Source: Halieaceae bacterium MED-G27
GTDB lineage: Bacteria > Pseudomonadota > Gammaproteobacteria > Pseudomonadales > Halieaceae
Direction: 5' to 3'
DNA length: 64,000 bases
Assembly (NCBI GenBank): GCA_002456975.1
Contig: NTKA01000002.1
Location: 1-64,000 of the forward strand
Under the pieces are notes generated by a model. It was not told where the DNA came from. It was given only the letters and a program-made list of their open reading frames with translations, and did not search any database. A program made the position numbers and the translations under genes. Shown one piece after another: positions 59,525 to 64,000 of the stretch (within the stretch, counting starts at the first letter, position 1; every line of letters begins with the position of its first letter).

Positions 59525-60940
59525 CTATTCTAGGACCTTGATCCAGTCGCCTGTTCGGGGCTCTCCGTTGGGGTAATAGCCGTTGATTAACCGCAGTTGA
59601 TTTTCGGCATCGGGGACTCTTATCCCCGCGCTCAGCGAGCTGAAGGTAGCACCGCGGGGTACCTGAACATAGGTTAGTGCGTTACTTTCACCGCGCTTCT
59701 TCTCGCGTGGAAACAGTGGGCGAAAGCTGGTGATGATGGTTTTTAGTCCGATGTCGGCTGTGGCAAAGTCACTTGACGCACCTTCGAAAAGATAGCGATA
59801 GCGATGATCAACGACGCCCATACGTTTTTGCGTAGCGCCGGCGCTAGCAATTCCTGTGGCGCCGACCAGCCCTTGGTTTTCAGTGGCTTCGAGCTCGCCT
59901 AGATCGCCAGAGACTGTGGCTGAGAGCGTCTCCTCGGGACTCTGCTCAGGATCGACCTTAGTAATTCGAATAGTCATCGTATCCCGACCATCGGGCGACG
60001 AGGCGACGATTGAATTAGCAGTCGCGCTGACGTCCCAGTTTTCTGGGTGCTCGAACGTAAAATCGAGTTTGTTGTGGTAGTACCGCAACGGGTCGCCCTG
60101 CGCTTCAGCGCTCGCACCAACCACCAAGCCTTCGGTTTCACGGCGGTAGCGACCGGGGATTTCAGGGTTTTCGGGTAAGTCTTCGCTGGCCAGATCCCCT
60201 GCAGCTTTAATGACGGTCTGCAGGCGCAGATCATTTCGGGGGTGCGAGGCATACAAGCCGTGATAGGTTCCAGTAGGTTTGCCGCTCGCTTTTGCGACGG
60301 CGCGGCGATAGCGCTCTTGATCCTTTAGTACTCCGATCACGGATAGCATTGAGTCGACATCGTAGCCGCTCTTATGCATGAATACGGCGCCTGCTCGGTC
60401 GGCTTCGAGCTCCATTTCACGCCCGAATCCAGAGATCACCTCGGCCCCATACATACTGGTCGCATCATATAAGTCACCCGATCCGGTCAGAATATAGGCC
60501 GACACCGCCGCGGCTTGTGTGGTCATGCTCTGTGTCTTGCGTCGACGGTGGTGATGTTCGGTGATGTGTCCGATCTCGTGTGCGATAACCCCCGCAAGCT
60601 CAGCTTCAGATTCTAAGTAGGCCAGCAGTCCACGGTTGATGTAGATCATGCCTCCGGGCAAAGCGAATGCATTGATATCGGGCGAGTCGAGTATCGTGAA
60701 AGTGAATTCAGCATCGGGCATGCTCGAATTCGCCACCAATCGATCGGCAATTTCATTAACGTAAGCTGCTAGTTCGGGATCGTCGTAAATTCCGACGTTG
60801 TCTATGAGCTTCTCGTGCTCATCGGCGGCATCGCTTGGCAGATTGACGGCGCGCCCGCCGACCGTAACTGTAGATGTGCTACCACATCCGGCGATGAGAG
60901 CAAGCAGCGTGACTACGATTAAGGAGCGCAGCATCGTCAC
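59525..60940 (-). CDS. M48 family lipoprotein metalloprotease
   Basis: This 471-residue protein has a lipoprotein signal (LIAGC, Cys19), zinc motif HEIGH at 121-125, and the third ligand in GREMELEADRAG (Glu177), typical of periplasmic BepA/LoiP-type M48 enzymes. The C-terminal half (from about residue 290) is a separate domain with no motif I recognise. It is the last gene of a five-gene overlapping set with two lipoproteins and two VWA proteins, starting in the stop of the previous gene (ATGA). Confidence 0.88.
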   Translation of the reverse strand: MTMLRSLIVVTLLALIAGCGSTSTVTVGGRAVNLPSDAADEHEKLIDNVGIYDDPELAAYVNEIADRLVANSSMPDAEFTFTILDSPDINAFALPGGMIYINRGLLAYLESEAELAGVIAHEIGHITEHHHRRRKTQSMTTQAAAVSAYILTGSGDLYDATSMYGAEVISGFGREMELEADRAGAVFMHKSGYDVDSMLSVIGVLKDQERYRRAVAKASGKPTGTYHGLYASHPRNDLRLQTVIKAAGDLASEDLPENPEIPGRYRRETEGLVVGASAEAQGDPLRYYHNKLDFTFEHPENWDVSATANSIVASSPDGRDTMTIRITKVDPEQSPEETLSATVSGDLGELEATENQGLVGATGIASAGATQKRMGVVDHRYRYLFEGASSDFATADIGLKTIITSFRPLFPREKKRGESNALTYVQVPRGATFSSLSAGIRVPDAENQLRLINGYYPNGEPRTGDWIKVLE

Positions 60941-61590
60941 TGACCTGCCGATAAATATTCCAGCAATTGCTGACCCAAGCTTTGGCAGGCGGTGTCTTGC
61001 ACCGGCGCGATCAGCGGTATTGGTACGACAACAGCGGGCATGTAGCTCTGACCACTTGTAGAGGCACTCATCCGGCCAACTTCAGCGTTGTTAATAAAGT
61101 TCCAGATAGTGGCTTCGTAATCTGATTCGGTACCCCAGGTGCCAAAGCCGAAGCAGCCGCCGCCGGCAGGGCTGATGCCACAGGTCATGGTACCCGCACT
61201 GTTGGTGTCTTGGGTTCGGCCATCCACCCAGACCATGTAGTTTAGATTGAGGTCTACGATTTTATTGGCCACGGGCTCGATGGTCATGAGGCGATCGAGG
61301 CCCTCGATACCTAGCGGTGCTGTTCTTGGTTCAAACCACGGGTAGAGCGAGTCCACAAATTTGCGCTCGGGAATCACGGTAATCGATGAATTACCACGCG
61401 TGATGTGATCGCCAATGCAATCGATGAAATCTGGTTCTGTATCGTAATCAGGCGCATGGCGACGTCCCAGTATGACGACGGCCCCGTCACCGATACCGGC
61501 AGTTGGCGCATCAAATGTCATTTCGTCTACGTTAGCGGTCACGCAGCCGCAAAGAAATAAAATGGTGATTAGTGGGAGTGCAAAACGCAT
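60937..61590 (-). CDS. Lipoprotein of unknown function
   Basis: This 217-residue protein has a lipoprotein signal (MRFALPLITILFLCGC, lipobox LCGC). The mature part contains VVILGRRHAPDYDTEPDF, a CIGDHI region, ERKFVDSLYPWFEPRTAP and a Cys/Gly-rich turn (CGISPAGGGCFGFG). No known domain is recognised. It overlaps its upstream neighbour by 1 nt and the M48 gene by 4 nt. Confidence 0.82.
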   Translation of the reverse strand: MRFALPLITILFLCGCVTANVDEMTFDAPTAGIGDGAVVILGRRHAPDYDTEPDFIDCIGDHITRGNSSITVIPERKFVDSLYPWFEPRTAPLGIEGLDRLMTIEPVANKIVDLNLNYMVWVDGRTQDTNSAGTMTCGISPAGGGCFGFGTWGTESDYEATIWNFINNAEVGRMSASTSGQSYMPAVVVPIPLIAPVQDTACQSLGQQLLEYLSAGQ

Positions 61591-62258
61591 TATTCACTCT
61601 CCATAGTAGTGGCCAACCAGCTGTTAACCGAAGGCACCCGCCCAAAGCTGGTAATAAAGTTGGCGCCCGCATCCCTCAGCGCCATCACCGCAGCCAGGTT
61701 CACGGCATCAACATCGGATTGCATAAATGCCGTGGGCGTCTTGCCATAGGCACTGAGGGTCCAGTCGGCAAAAGCCTGTATGTCGTCAGCAGCGATATCG
61801 AGACTTGCCTGCTCCATCAGTACCTCTGGCTCTGCCAACTGCAAACGATATCGCATCCAGAGTTCGTAAACCTTGACGTTGGTGTACAGCGGAATCGCGT
61901 ACTGGACATCGACAATGCTAGGTATAAATACGGCGTCGACTTGATAGTTGTTGAGGTCCTCGATGCTCTCAATGTAAACCACGTTATTGAAAGCGGCGGG
62001 CAGCAGCGTTGACCAAAATTCCACTTGCGCTACTCCGGTGCTGACTCGCCAACTCGCTTCTCCTCGGGCACTGCCATCGTCTACTAACTCATGGTTCTTA
62101 AACGAATCGGTGTAGAGGACGCCTATCGTTAGCGGCAGCTGGGGAATGACGGGTTCAGGAAAACTGCCATCTACGACCACTTCCTTAGCTGCGCAACCAG
62201 ACAAAATTAAGGACAGTAAGCCGAATAGCAGGCTCTTATAATTACGGACGATAGTCAT
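61590..62258 (-). CDS. Lipoprotein of unknown function
   Basis: This protein of about 222 residues starts MTIVRNYKSLLFGLLSLILSGC, with Cys in the lipobox LSGC; the ATG at 62258 is chosen because the earlier in-frame Met adds no signal character. The mature part holds IGVLYTDSFKNHELVD, WRVSTGVAQVEFWSTLLPAAF and an Ala-rich helical C-terminus. No family recognised. It overlaps the VWA gene end by 17 nt. Confidence 0.82.
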   Translation of the reverse strand: MTIVRNYKSLLFGLLSLILSGCAAKEVVVDGSFPEPVIPQLPLTIGVLYTDSFKNHELVDDGSARGEASWRVSTGVAQVEFWSTLLPAAFNNVVYIESIEDLNNYQVDAVFIPSIVDVQYAIPLYTNVKVYELWMRYRLQLAEPEVLMEQASLDIAADDIQAFADWTLSAYGKTPTAFMQSDVDAVNLAAVMALRDAGANFITSFGRVPSVNSWLATTMESE

Positions 62259-63240
62259 TGAGTCCCACAAACGTTCCACCATTTCGATGAGTCAGTTCTC
62301 GCATCAGTGTAGCAAACCGAATGCCCGTATCCTGCAACTCTGGTGGCCGTATGAACTGTACGGGAAAGCCCACGGCATGGATGCGAACCCGCCGCTCGCC
62401 GCTGGCTGCCTCGGCGTTTAAACGGTCAACCGTTAACACTACTTGCTCGATTGATCGTCCGGTAAATTCATCGCCGAACACGTAAATCGATATTTTTTTC
62501 TCTCGATCGTAAAACGATTGCACTGCTTGAGTGATGCCCTCGACGGGTGACGAGTTCGAAAAAGCATTCCAGTTAGCGAGGTTGCGAAGAATCTGTTGTC
62601 GTCGCATTGGCGTATCGGGAATCCACTGCCCGGCGGTACGGCTGAATAGGTAGTTACCCATATCGTTCAGCACCTGAATCCCTTTCACGTTAGGGTATAT
62701 ATTCAGCGTCGCTTCCATCTCTTGAAGCATTCGCTGCCAGGCATAAGAGAACATCGATCCCGATGTATCGATAATAAAAATAATGTACTCGCTGTCGACG
62801 GGGATTCCACCGATTAACTGATTTTGTCGCTCGGCATCACGACCGAGTAGTCGTTCCTGTTCCTCGCTTAATTCTTGGCGTGCAATCGCTAGTTGCTCAG
62901 CGACAATGCTGTTGGCGTTGCGGGTGGTCTGCAGTGCATCAAAACGCGATTTTGATTGTGCGAGCGCACCCTGAAGGATGGCAATACGCTCATCGTAAGC
63001 TGAAATTTGTTCGCGTTTGGCGTCGAGATCGCGATTGAGGATGGTGGTTTCACCACGGATTTCGAACAATTGCTCGGTGAGTTCCGCGACTTTACCCTCG
63101 GCGATCACGGTTGATTCTTCAAGGACCTGCGGTTCTAACGTTTTGGTGATCATTAGCAATAAGATCACCGCACCAAAGCCGCAACAAATAACGTCCAGAA
63201 ATGATAATGAGATTTCAGGCGTGGGTCGTCGCTTCGGCAT
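62242..63240 (-). CDS. ExbD/TolR-like membrane segment fused to coiled coil and VWA domain
   Basis: This protein of about 332 residues has PTPEISLSFLDVICCGFGAVILLLMI at the start; written in two parts, ISLSFLDVICC then GFGAVILLLMI. A single Asp (Asp16) at the mouth of the transmembrane helix follows the ExbD/TolR/MotB pattern. A long coiled coil follows (about 45-140), then a VWA domain (about 150-325) with the MIDAS motif DTSGSM at 158-163. The ATG at 63240 overlaps the TAA of the upstream VWA gene by one base, and a TTG at 63249 is unlikely. It should span the inner membrane with the VWA domain in the periplasm. Confidence 0.8.
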   Translation of the reverse strand: MPKRRPTPEISLSFLDVICCGFGAVILLLMITKTLEPQVLEESTVIAEGKVAELTEQLFEIRGETTILNRDLDAKREQISAYDERIAILQGALAQSKSRFDALQTTRNANSIVAEQLAIARQELSEEQERLLGRDAERQNQLIGGIPVDSEYIIFIIDTSGSMFSYAWQRMLQEMEATLNIYPNVKGIQVLNDMGNYLFSRTAGQWIPDTPMRRQQILRNLANWNAFSNSSPVEGITQAVQSFYDREKKISIYVFGDEFTGRSIEQVVLTVDRLNAEAASGERRVRIHAVGFPVQFIRPPELQDTGIRFATLMRELTHRNGGTFVGLNDYRP

Positions 63241-64000
63241 TAGGGCCAATCCTTAGCAGGCGCCATGAAGCTACCGCCCGATTCTTGGGCAAGACGCCAA
63301 AACTCCGATGCTGCGGCGGGATCACCTTCCATAGGGGACAAAATAACATTGATTGGCGTATTGCCGGGCAAGGCCCGAATCGCCTCCCTGAAAAGATTTA
63401 AGCGCTGGGGACCCGAGACGGTAGTCCGACGCGGCGCCTTGTCTCCCTGAGTTGGCAATCCATCAGTAATGATGAATATGTTGTCGGGTTTAGCACTAAA
63501 CTCATCCAAACGTTTGAAGGCGTTCAGCAGCGAGGTGCCACCAGTGGGAAGGCGCTCGCGAATAGAATTACTCACACGCTCGATTTGAGCGCCGTCTGCT
63601 ACCTCCAACCAGCGCCCGGCAGTTTCGGGCAAGGCATATTCGGCTTCGGTATTAAATGCGATAACTTGATATCTTGAACCCACCGGTAACTGCGCTGTCA
63701 GCCAATCGAGTGTGTCGAGCGCTTGATTCCATTTTCTAGCCTGACGTTGCCTGTCAGGAGACTGGTTTCTGAGTCTTATGATATTGACAACTTCGGGCGC
63801 GAGCATACTTGACGACACATCGATAAGGATGGCAATTCGATTACCGCCGAGCTTTAGGCCTGTAAGGTATTGCCGATTACCTTCGCCTTGAAACTCGCGA
63901 GCGCTTTGGCCGCCATCGGCTTCAGCGGCCTCTTTCAGTTGTTGTATCTGCTCCTCAAGCGAATTGATCTCGGCTTTTAGCGCGTCTAGGTCGGTAGTCT
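63240..64000 (-). CDS. VWA domain protein (5' part outside window)
   Basis: The frame is open on the minus strand from the stop at 63240 to the window edge, about 253 codons. The visible part starts with a coiled coil (LDALKAEINSLEEQIQQLKE) and passes through GLKLGGNRIAILIDVSSSML. This holds the MIDAS motif DVSSSM (around 63804-63821) of a VWA domain. The rest of the VWA domain follows (IIRLRNQSPD, FIITDGLPTQGDK). The N-terminus, possibly with its own membrane segment, lies beyond 64000. It precedes the complete VWA gene with a 1-nt TAATG overlap. Confidence 0.78.
   Translation of the reverse strand, partial: TTDLDALKAEINSLEEQIQQLKEAAEADGGQSAREFQGEGNRQYLTGLKLGGNRIAILIDVSSSMLAPEVVNIIRLRNQSPDRQRQARKWNQALDTLDWLTAQLPVGSRYQVIAFNTEAEYALPETAGRWLEVADGAQIERVSNSIRERLPTGGTSLLNAFKRLDEFSAKPDNIFIITDGLPTQGDKAPRRTTVSGPQRLNLFREAIRALPGNTPINVILSPMEGDPAAASEFWRLAQESGGSFMAPAKDWP

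Follow-up and report, generated by a model that had tools for sequence, protein, structure and literature searches.

The stretch analysed here, the window, covers the first 64,000 bases of contig C12 (112,917 bases in length) of Halieaceae bacterium MED-G27, and five genes of its minus strand occupy the end of it in the order VWA1 (cut by the window edge), VWA2, lipoprotein A, lipoprotein B and an M48 lipoprotein, with overlaps of 1, 17, 1 and 4 nt. The two von Willebrand factor A (VWA) proteins share one architecture. VWA2 (62242..63240, minus strand; 332 aa from the ATG at 63240) has an N-terminal transpore-type helix, a coiled-coil-like linker and a VWA head. Its Asp16, the proposed ion-binding residue, is encoded at 63193..63195 and its metal ion-dependent adhesion site (MIDAS) motif, DTSGSM, at 62752..62769, both on the minus strand. 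Since the window is part of a longer contig, the sequence past its edge could be read. VWA1 (64331-63240, minus strand; 63240..64000 in the window) is 363 aa long with 252 aa inside the window; its MIDAS motif, DVSSSM, lies at 63804..63821 (minus strand) and its helix with Asp17 lies past the window end. The start and stop codons of the five genes were checked on the DNA. A sequence-only reading of the window had described the five overlapping genes, two intact MIDAS motifs, a helix with one Asp at the start of the complete VWA protein, two unrecognised lipoproteins and an M48 lipoprotein protease, and all of these were borne out. It had also pointed beyond 64000 for the N-terminus of the partial VWA gene, which starts at 64331 and holds the helix and Asp17.

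The five window genes are the last of 13 in an operon, and the eight genes upstream of them lie on the same strand. The order is T-S-L-R-P-s-E-A-VWA1-VWA2-lipoA-lipoB-M48; some neighbours overlap, and no gap between them exceeds 12 bases. Gene E (C12 65603-66406, minus strand; 267 aa), whose 3′ end, the nearer one, is 1.6 kb beyond the end of the window, encodes a channel protein of the MotA/TolQ/ExbB family PF01618 (52.5 bits in Pfam against a cut-off of 22.9). A channel gene just outside the window had been predicted, and E was found in 63/63 loci with enough flanking sequence. Thr189 and Thr222 of E are invariant in 81/81 distinct members (here and below, duplicates were removed by the last 150 residues). 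Both align with threonines of TolQ and of two ExbB-type proteins of the same genome, and they presumably correspond to the E. coli pore threonines. The closest solved relatives by profile were TolQ (E-value 0.018) and PomA (E-value 1.0), both weak; the E profile against PDB sequences gave no match at an E-value of 0.01 and weak ones only at E-values up to 10. In a phylogenetic tree, 30 E proteins formed their own clade against 43 TolQ/ExbB-motif open reading frames (ORFs), which were chosen by motif from ExbD loci, with a support of 0.999.

At the N-terminus of both VWA proteins, a short basic stretch precedes a [SA]FLD[VI]xxCGFGA-like motif at the start of a hydrophobic helix, which spans residues 14-32 in VWA2 (Asp16) and 15-33 in VWA1 (Asp17). 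The Asp was present in 89/89 distinct VWA1 sequences, six rows cut by contig ends being set aside, and in VWA2 in 21/21 sequences of the alignment and in 96/96 distinct sequences, the latter partly selected by the search pattern. That pattern, FLDVI[CS]CG, was one of two used to collect the best 80 of 245 loci and favours Asp-bearing VWA2 there; the profile-found class and phylum sets and the VWA1 counts are free of this bias. The Asp was found in 26/26 distinct sequences of each protein in the class set, and in 15/15 of VWA1 and 14/14 of VWA2 in the phylum set, which for both proteins includes the window's own copy and one order relative. A lack of conservation of Asp16 among homologues, which the sequence-only reading had named as refuting it, was thus not seen. 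A median of 151 residues in VWA1 (84 sequences scored) or 139 residues in VWA2 (76 scored), helix included, separates the end of the Asp motif from the MIDAS. The MIDAS pattern DxSxS was detected in 91/91 distinct VWA1 sequences (four truncated rows set aside) and 96/96 of VWA2. VWA1 matches PF13519 above the cut-off and VWA2 falls below it (20.1 bits against 27), its MIDAS residues nevertheless being present.

The two VWA proteins are paralogous (hhalign probability 99.7%). Because they split cleanly in a tree, 30 against 30 with a support of 1.0, their sequences indicate an old, retained pair that predates the divergence of the sampled lineages. One locus, L052 of genus g5 (L052:2439-4605), differs in both heads. 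Compared with the window, its helices are each 83% and its E protein 70% identical, and both heads are ~32% identical; in three comparison loci the heads are 46-67% and the helices 70-90% identical. In a second g5 genome, G085, VWA2 is likewise only 34% identical. L052 looks like a case of paired head replacement or of fast paired evolution, and since both heads changed together, this suggests that the two may act together on a common partner.

The VWA proteins are the only axle candidates found in the cluster. In this genome, which is 75% complete, the ExbD/TolR family PF02472 was matched only on contigs C9 and C3, with no match on C12. A local ExbD profile, which recovers 40/40 of its own training sequences, detected just two ORFs over 101 loci, both ~10 kb from VWA2. 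The genome encodes three ExbD/TolR proteins elsewhere, and its other PF01618 genes adjoin their own ExbD/TolR genes. These separate Tol and ExbB/ExbD loci support the view that the VWA motor is a further motor, additional to both systems.

VWA2 was matched in 89/146 genomes searched: the genome itself, 47/56 of its genus, 33/34 other members of the family and 8/55 other members of the order, some of the matches being contig-end fragments. It was also matched in 31/369 genomes drawn across the class, and VWA1 in 15/398 drawn across the phylum (own genome included in each case), 12 of the 15 belonging to family f245, which lies outside the class. Conservation of the gene order in other genomes had been put forward as a check, and the order extends far beyond the genus. 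Twenty loci fetched separately show this order, and among the 80 loci with record titles, which are the best 80 of the 245, it agrees in 80/80; 45 show at least 11 genes and three only two, and the departures within the constant order are missing parts and, in L039, genes P and T in pieces. The titles name Halieaceae, Microbulbifer, Pseudoalteromonas denitrificans, Bowmanella, Porticoccus, Arenicella, Colwellia and Pseudoalteromonas, together with loci from metagenome-assembled genomes labelled, as deposited, Desulfobacteraceae, Acidobacteria and Kiritimatiellia. With VWA2 matched in 89/146 genomes and the order conserved this widely, the cluster is real and not a product of chance, and we regard it as a conserved envelope machine.

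Presence was scored where the flank sufficed, starting from loci with the VWA pair, so that the counts measure what accompanies that pair; they describe related genomes and not independent events, and score the near-identical loci L086-L089 as four. VWA1 was present in 72/72 loci, P in 56/57, R in 54/55, L in 53/54, S in 49/51 and A in 60/65, and lipoA, lipoB and M48 in 60/78, 58/75 and 47/69, respectively. Four f245 loci, from a lineage outside the class, hold S-L-R-P-s-E-VWA1-VWA2 alone and in the same order. We therefore take these eight genes as the core and A, T, lipoA, lipoB and M48 as additions.

Collectively, these results favour an operon encoding a 5:2 motor driven by ion-motive force, with a VWA1-VWA2 heterodimer as its axle, which acts on an outer-membrane lipoprotein assembly; we give this a probability of about 0.72. 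By homology, five E subunits would enclose an axle to which VWA1 and VWA2 contribute one helix each. The helix residues Asp17 and Asp16 would load and release ions (protons or sodium) between the two threonine rings of the channel, so that the axle or the ring turns. From each axle subunit a coiled-coil-like linker of ~100-120 residues would reach into the periplasm and end in the MIDAS-bearing head. The heads may grip an envelope partner and pull on it or remodel it; an outer-membrane assembly of L and S, joined by the accessory lipoproteins A and B, is the most likely candidate. P (PEGA/FGE-like, after formylglycine-generating enzyme) and R (TPR-like), both anchored in the membrane, could form a periplasmic scaffold, and in lineages having gene A its cytoplasmic Hsp70-fold/FHA product may regulate the motor. 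Envelope maintenance is our first guess at the outcome and surface translocation the second.

Several observations weigh against this reading. Neither VWA protein matches PF02472 in Pfam, and an hhalign comparison of 42 VWA helix segments with 21 ExbD/TolR segments gave a probability of 1.9% over eight columns, with the Asp unaligned. To the eye, the helix motif looks like that of the genome's own TolR (YIDVM). The profile comparison does not reach significance and so does not establish common descent with ExbD, and convergence of the two sequences is possible. E is only 16-18% identical to the paralogues of its own genome and far from TolQ/ExbB outside the motif region, and its hydropathy suggests an extra N-terminal helix. 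In the class set, DxSxS was found in 25/26 VWA1 sequences, L185 lacking the pattern, and in 26/26 of VWA2; a MIDAS, moreover, shows a capacity to bind and does not by itself point to a partner. Lipoproteins A and B and the M48 protein are missing in 18/78, 17/75 and 22/69 loci, and for this reason cannot belong to the core. The sequence-only reading had proposed an ion-driven envelope machine from the five window genes and a channel gene just beyond them. The channel, the invariant Asp and the separation from Tol and ExbB/ExbD stand; the similarity of the helix to ExbD, the lack of which that reading had listed among its refuting results, does not, and the two lipoproteins and the M48 protease, absent in about one quarter to one third of loci, are accessory. 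Its central idea is probably right and was already in print as a prediction.

That prediction is found in section 8 of PMC12204202 (Mol Biol Evol 2025, msaf138), where AlphaFold 3 models place TPH-vWA pairs inside a TolQ-like pentamer in the place of TolR. As described there, the family shares with the present operon an adjacent tolQ-like gene, a heterologous vWA pair, a cluster free of tolR/exbD, an Asp-bearing transpore helix, a conserved threonine ring and an occurrence in Proteobacteria. The likeness was judged by these described features; of the Idiomarina proteins used in that study no counterpart occurs among the best 80 of our 245 loci, where Bowmanella, Colwellia and Pseudoalteromonas do. 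Because the operon shows the testable features stated in PMC12204202, credit for the core mechanism should go to that work, and the central idea is not new. PEGA, sulfatase-type, Hsp70, M48 and formylglycine have no occurrence in its main text, and its section 8 makes no mention of further genes of an operon. A published description of the remaining genes was not found in a literature search that lay outside subscription papers and preprints. What is new here is the full operon, the Hsp70-fold/FHA partner, the PelC/CsgG/TolB-N-type lipoprotein, the [FY]PxDI protein and the locus with co-diverged heads.

In diderm bacteria, work has to be transmitted from the inner membrane to the outer one. 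The machines known to do this are few, namely the Ton, Tol, flagellar, type IX secretion system (T9SS) and Agl motors. With ~8 core genes in constant order in two lineages of one phylum, near-universal presence in one family, many 2-3 Mb genomes among its members, and a proposed motor with metal-binding heads at its centre, the operon is a good candidate for another. Its parts list, invariant residues and small PxDI protein make the machine directly testable in cultured bacteria.

The same parts could serve a secretion or surface-attachment machine like the T9SS motor (GldKLMN) or Agl-Glt, with heads that move surface-exposed cargo. Such a reading does not conflict with the motor and departs from it in the result achieved. 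We consider it unlikely, though more probable than the other rivals. In the T9SS, GldLM is a motor with a long periplasmic axle. The best NCBIfam match of gene P (C12 66729-68816, minus strand; 695 aa) is GldK, reached through its FGE-type domain (E-value 4e-25; 89 bits against a cut-off of 350), so an FGE-fold protein is common to both. Unlike GldK, P has one N-terminal transmembrane helix and PEGA repeats, and no match to GldL, GldM or GldN, nor to any outer-membrane β-barrel, adhesin or other T9SS component above cut-off, was detected in the operon (Pfam 13/13, NCBIfam 10/13 proteins). The gliding machinery Agl-Glt of Myxococcus has, according to PMC3169522, a PF01618 channel with AglQ and AglS as two different axle proteins; TPR proteins, a lipoprotein of the outer membrane and an FHA domain belong to it as well, and PMC13104615 adds the VWA adhesin CglB. 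A channel with two different proposed axle proteins, TPR and FHA parts, a probable outer-membrane lipoprotein and VWA domains recur here, with a weakly TonB-like part that also recalls Glt. In contrast, AglQ/S belong to PF02472, neither a GltG-like FHA-TonB fusion nor a barrel was recognised in the operon, and its VWA domains sit on the proposed axle rather than on a surface adhesin. Moreover, many 2-3 Mb genomes of the genus carry the cluster, and gliding would not be expected in them.

A less probable arrangement has the VWA helices docking outside the channel, as those of TonB and TolA do, around an axle formed by an unlinked ExbD/TolR protein shared with another system. In PMC12204202 one vWA family, marked by an SHLS motif, is described as docking at the side, and the three ExbD/TolR proteins encoded elsewhere in the genome and the lack of an ExbD signal by hhalign fit such an arrangement. 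We nevertheless judge it quite improbable. The helix Asp is invariant in both VWA proteins, E and VWA1 accompany VWA2 in every locus scored with no ExbD nearby, and the ExbD/TolR genes of the genome adjoin TolQ/ExbB partners of their own.

Zorya (ZorAB) is a PF01618-type motor with an unusual axle protein. That the operon encodes an anti-phage defence motor related to it, as its membership of the same motor superfamily and its patchy occurrence outside the window's family (31/369 class genomes) might hint, is highly improbable, since PADLOC (10/13 proteins) gave only a weak ZorA2 match to E (E-value 0.031) and no ZorB, ZorC or ZorD, and the operon has a fixed order, is near-universal in the family (33/34 non-genus members) and left a plasmid collection searched with VWA2 without a match. 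The PADLOC matches were otherwise to coiled coils. Tol-Pal has in common with the operon a TolQ-like channel, an Asp-bearing axle helix and a probable force on the outer membrane, and TolB is among the fold matches of gene L. It differs in that no TolR, TolA, TolB propeller or Pal/OmpA domain was found in the operon (Pfam, 13 proteins), and the genome has its own TolQ-TolR locus. The statement of the sequence-only reading that the machine is related in principle to Zorya or Tol-Pal and the same as neither agrees with these results.

The small exported protein s (C12 66419-66766, minus strand; 115 aa) has one strong feature, its C-terminus. It ends in [FY]PxDI-stop in 86/87 loci having both P and E (83 by the pattern script and three more on inspection) and in 81/82 without duplicates, the exception being L052. 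In f245 it is ~50-75 aa long and consists of a membrane/signal segment and ~17 residues ending in FPVDI. The pattern occurs 107 times in the 4.3 million residues of six-frame translation of all loci, mostly in gene s. Because the tail is fixed relative to the C-terminus, its sequence suggests that it may be recognised through the free carboxylate or the Asp. A rather unlikely extension of the favoured motor reading is that s acts as a dedicated clutch peptide, its PxDI tail offering an acidic residue and a free carboxylate to a pocket, either at the MIDAS metal in one of the VWA heads or in a TPR clamp of R, so that binding and release would engage the axle with the outer-membrane assembly or free it. 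If true, this would give a rotary motor a metal-dependent clutch, something without precedent to our knowledge.

Residues 1-301 of protein A (C12 64335-65606, minus strand; 423 aa) are predicted to fold as an Hsp70-type nucleotide-binding domain (pLDDT 83.9), and the prediction superimposes on 4kbo with a VIA Z of 25.2 and a root-mean-square deviation of 2.8 over 295 aligned residues. In the first phosphate loop, position 6 is Asp/Glu in 71/75 and position 9 is Asp in 73/76 distinct rows with the residue. The glycine-rich second phosphate loop, which we take to be usual in Hsp70/actin ATPases, was not seen in the gene A alignment. At the C-terminal end of the L140 and L156 orthologues an FHA domain scores above cut-off; in the window copy and L093 none was found by Pfam. 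The lipoprotein L (C12 70371-71582, minus strand; 403 aa) is predicted to carry a FlgT/PelC/CsgG/TolB-N/PqiC-type domain near its lipidated end (VIA-align Z 8-10.9 over approximately residues 19-165), followed by a long helical hairpin; Foldseek gave no match at an E-value of 0.001 or below. Ring formation or a location at the outer membrane is seen in several proteins of this fold, and for that reason we provisionally place L there. A Gly/Ala-rich hydrophobic stretch at residues ~280-320 of L (L005:13371-14582) lies in the hairpin, in a low-confidence part of the prediction, and might insert in the membrane.

In formylglycine-generating enzyme the active-site cysteines are C-terminal. P lacks these: in 60/61 scored members no Cys was found within 40 residues from the RGxSW motif, the score leaving out 21 of 82 members in which the motif is absent. 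R (C12 68820-70364, minus strand; 514 aa) has one transmembrane helix and is TPR-like, its best Pfam match reaching 26.7 bits against a cut-off of 27. T (C12 72727-74232, minus strand; 501 aa) is also TPR-like; a TonB-C identity considered for it was dropped, as TonB_C was matched in 1/13 only. S (C12 71579-72730, minus strand; 383 aa) is a Ser-rich lipoprotein with a C-terminal motif in 64/66 sequences.

Among the accessory proteins, lipoprotein A (61590..62258, minus strand; 222 aa from the ATG at 62258) and lipoprotein B (60937..61590, minus strand; 217 aa) match no Pfam or NCBIfam model above cut-off. Lipoprotein B has five Cys invariant in 18 sequences (16, 58, 137, 146 and 202), of which Cys16 is that of the lipobox. 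PHROGs gave nothing of note for six proteins, the best match being a weak one over the signal peptide of lipoprotein A (E-value 0.025), and PDB sequence profiles likewise gave nothing useful for A, lipoA, lipoB and L. Lipoproteins A, B and L were compared with one another by hhalign, and homology among them was rejected, the probabilities being at most 77% and little being aligned beyond the signal-peptide region. A lipobox was matched by regular expression in 62/71 L, 51/66 S, 72/80 lipoA, 70/78 lipoB and 45/67 M48 sequences; some rows are N-terminally trimmed, so that misses are not losses, and two of the misses, L048 and L049, do carry one. A long Lys/Glu-rich insertion separates the lipobox region of lipoprotein A from its conserved part in these two loci (L048:2613-3605 and L049:2467-3516). 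The M48 metallopeptidase lipoprotein (59525..60940, minus strand; GTG start) matches PF01435 with an E-value of 4e-33, and its HExxH motif is intact and present in 62/62 distinct members.

A scan for promoters and terminators found 7 promoters against 9.6 in shuffled sequence and 15 terminators against 14.1, and because these counts are near those of the shuffles the scan does not define the ends of the operon. An amidohydrolase gene (PF07969; 57754-59457) follows the M48 gene on the same strand after 67 bases. As the terminator scan listed no terminator-like site between them, the two may possibly be co-transcribed. A second, divergent copy of the cluster was found at L053 (G016:C18:1-16000), in a genome already holding the main one; it has no gene A match and carries an unmatched 465-aa gene at the place of R.

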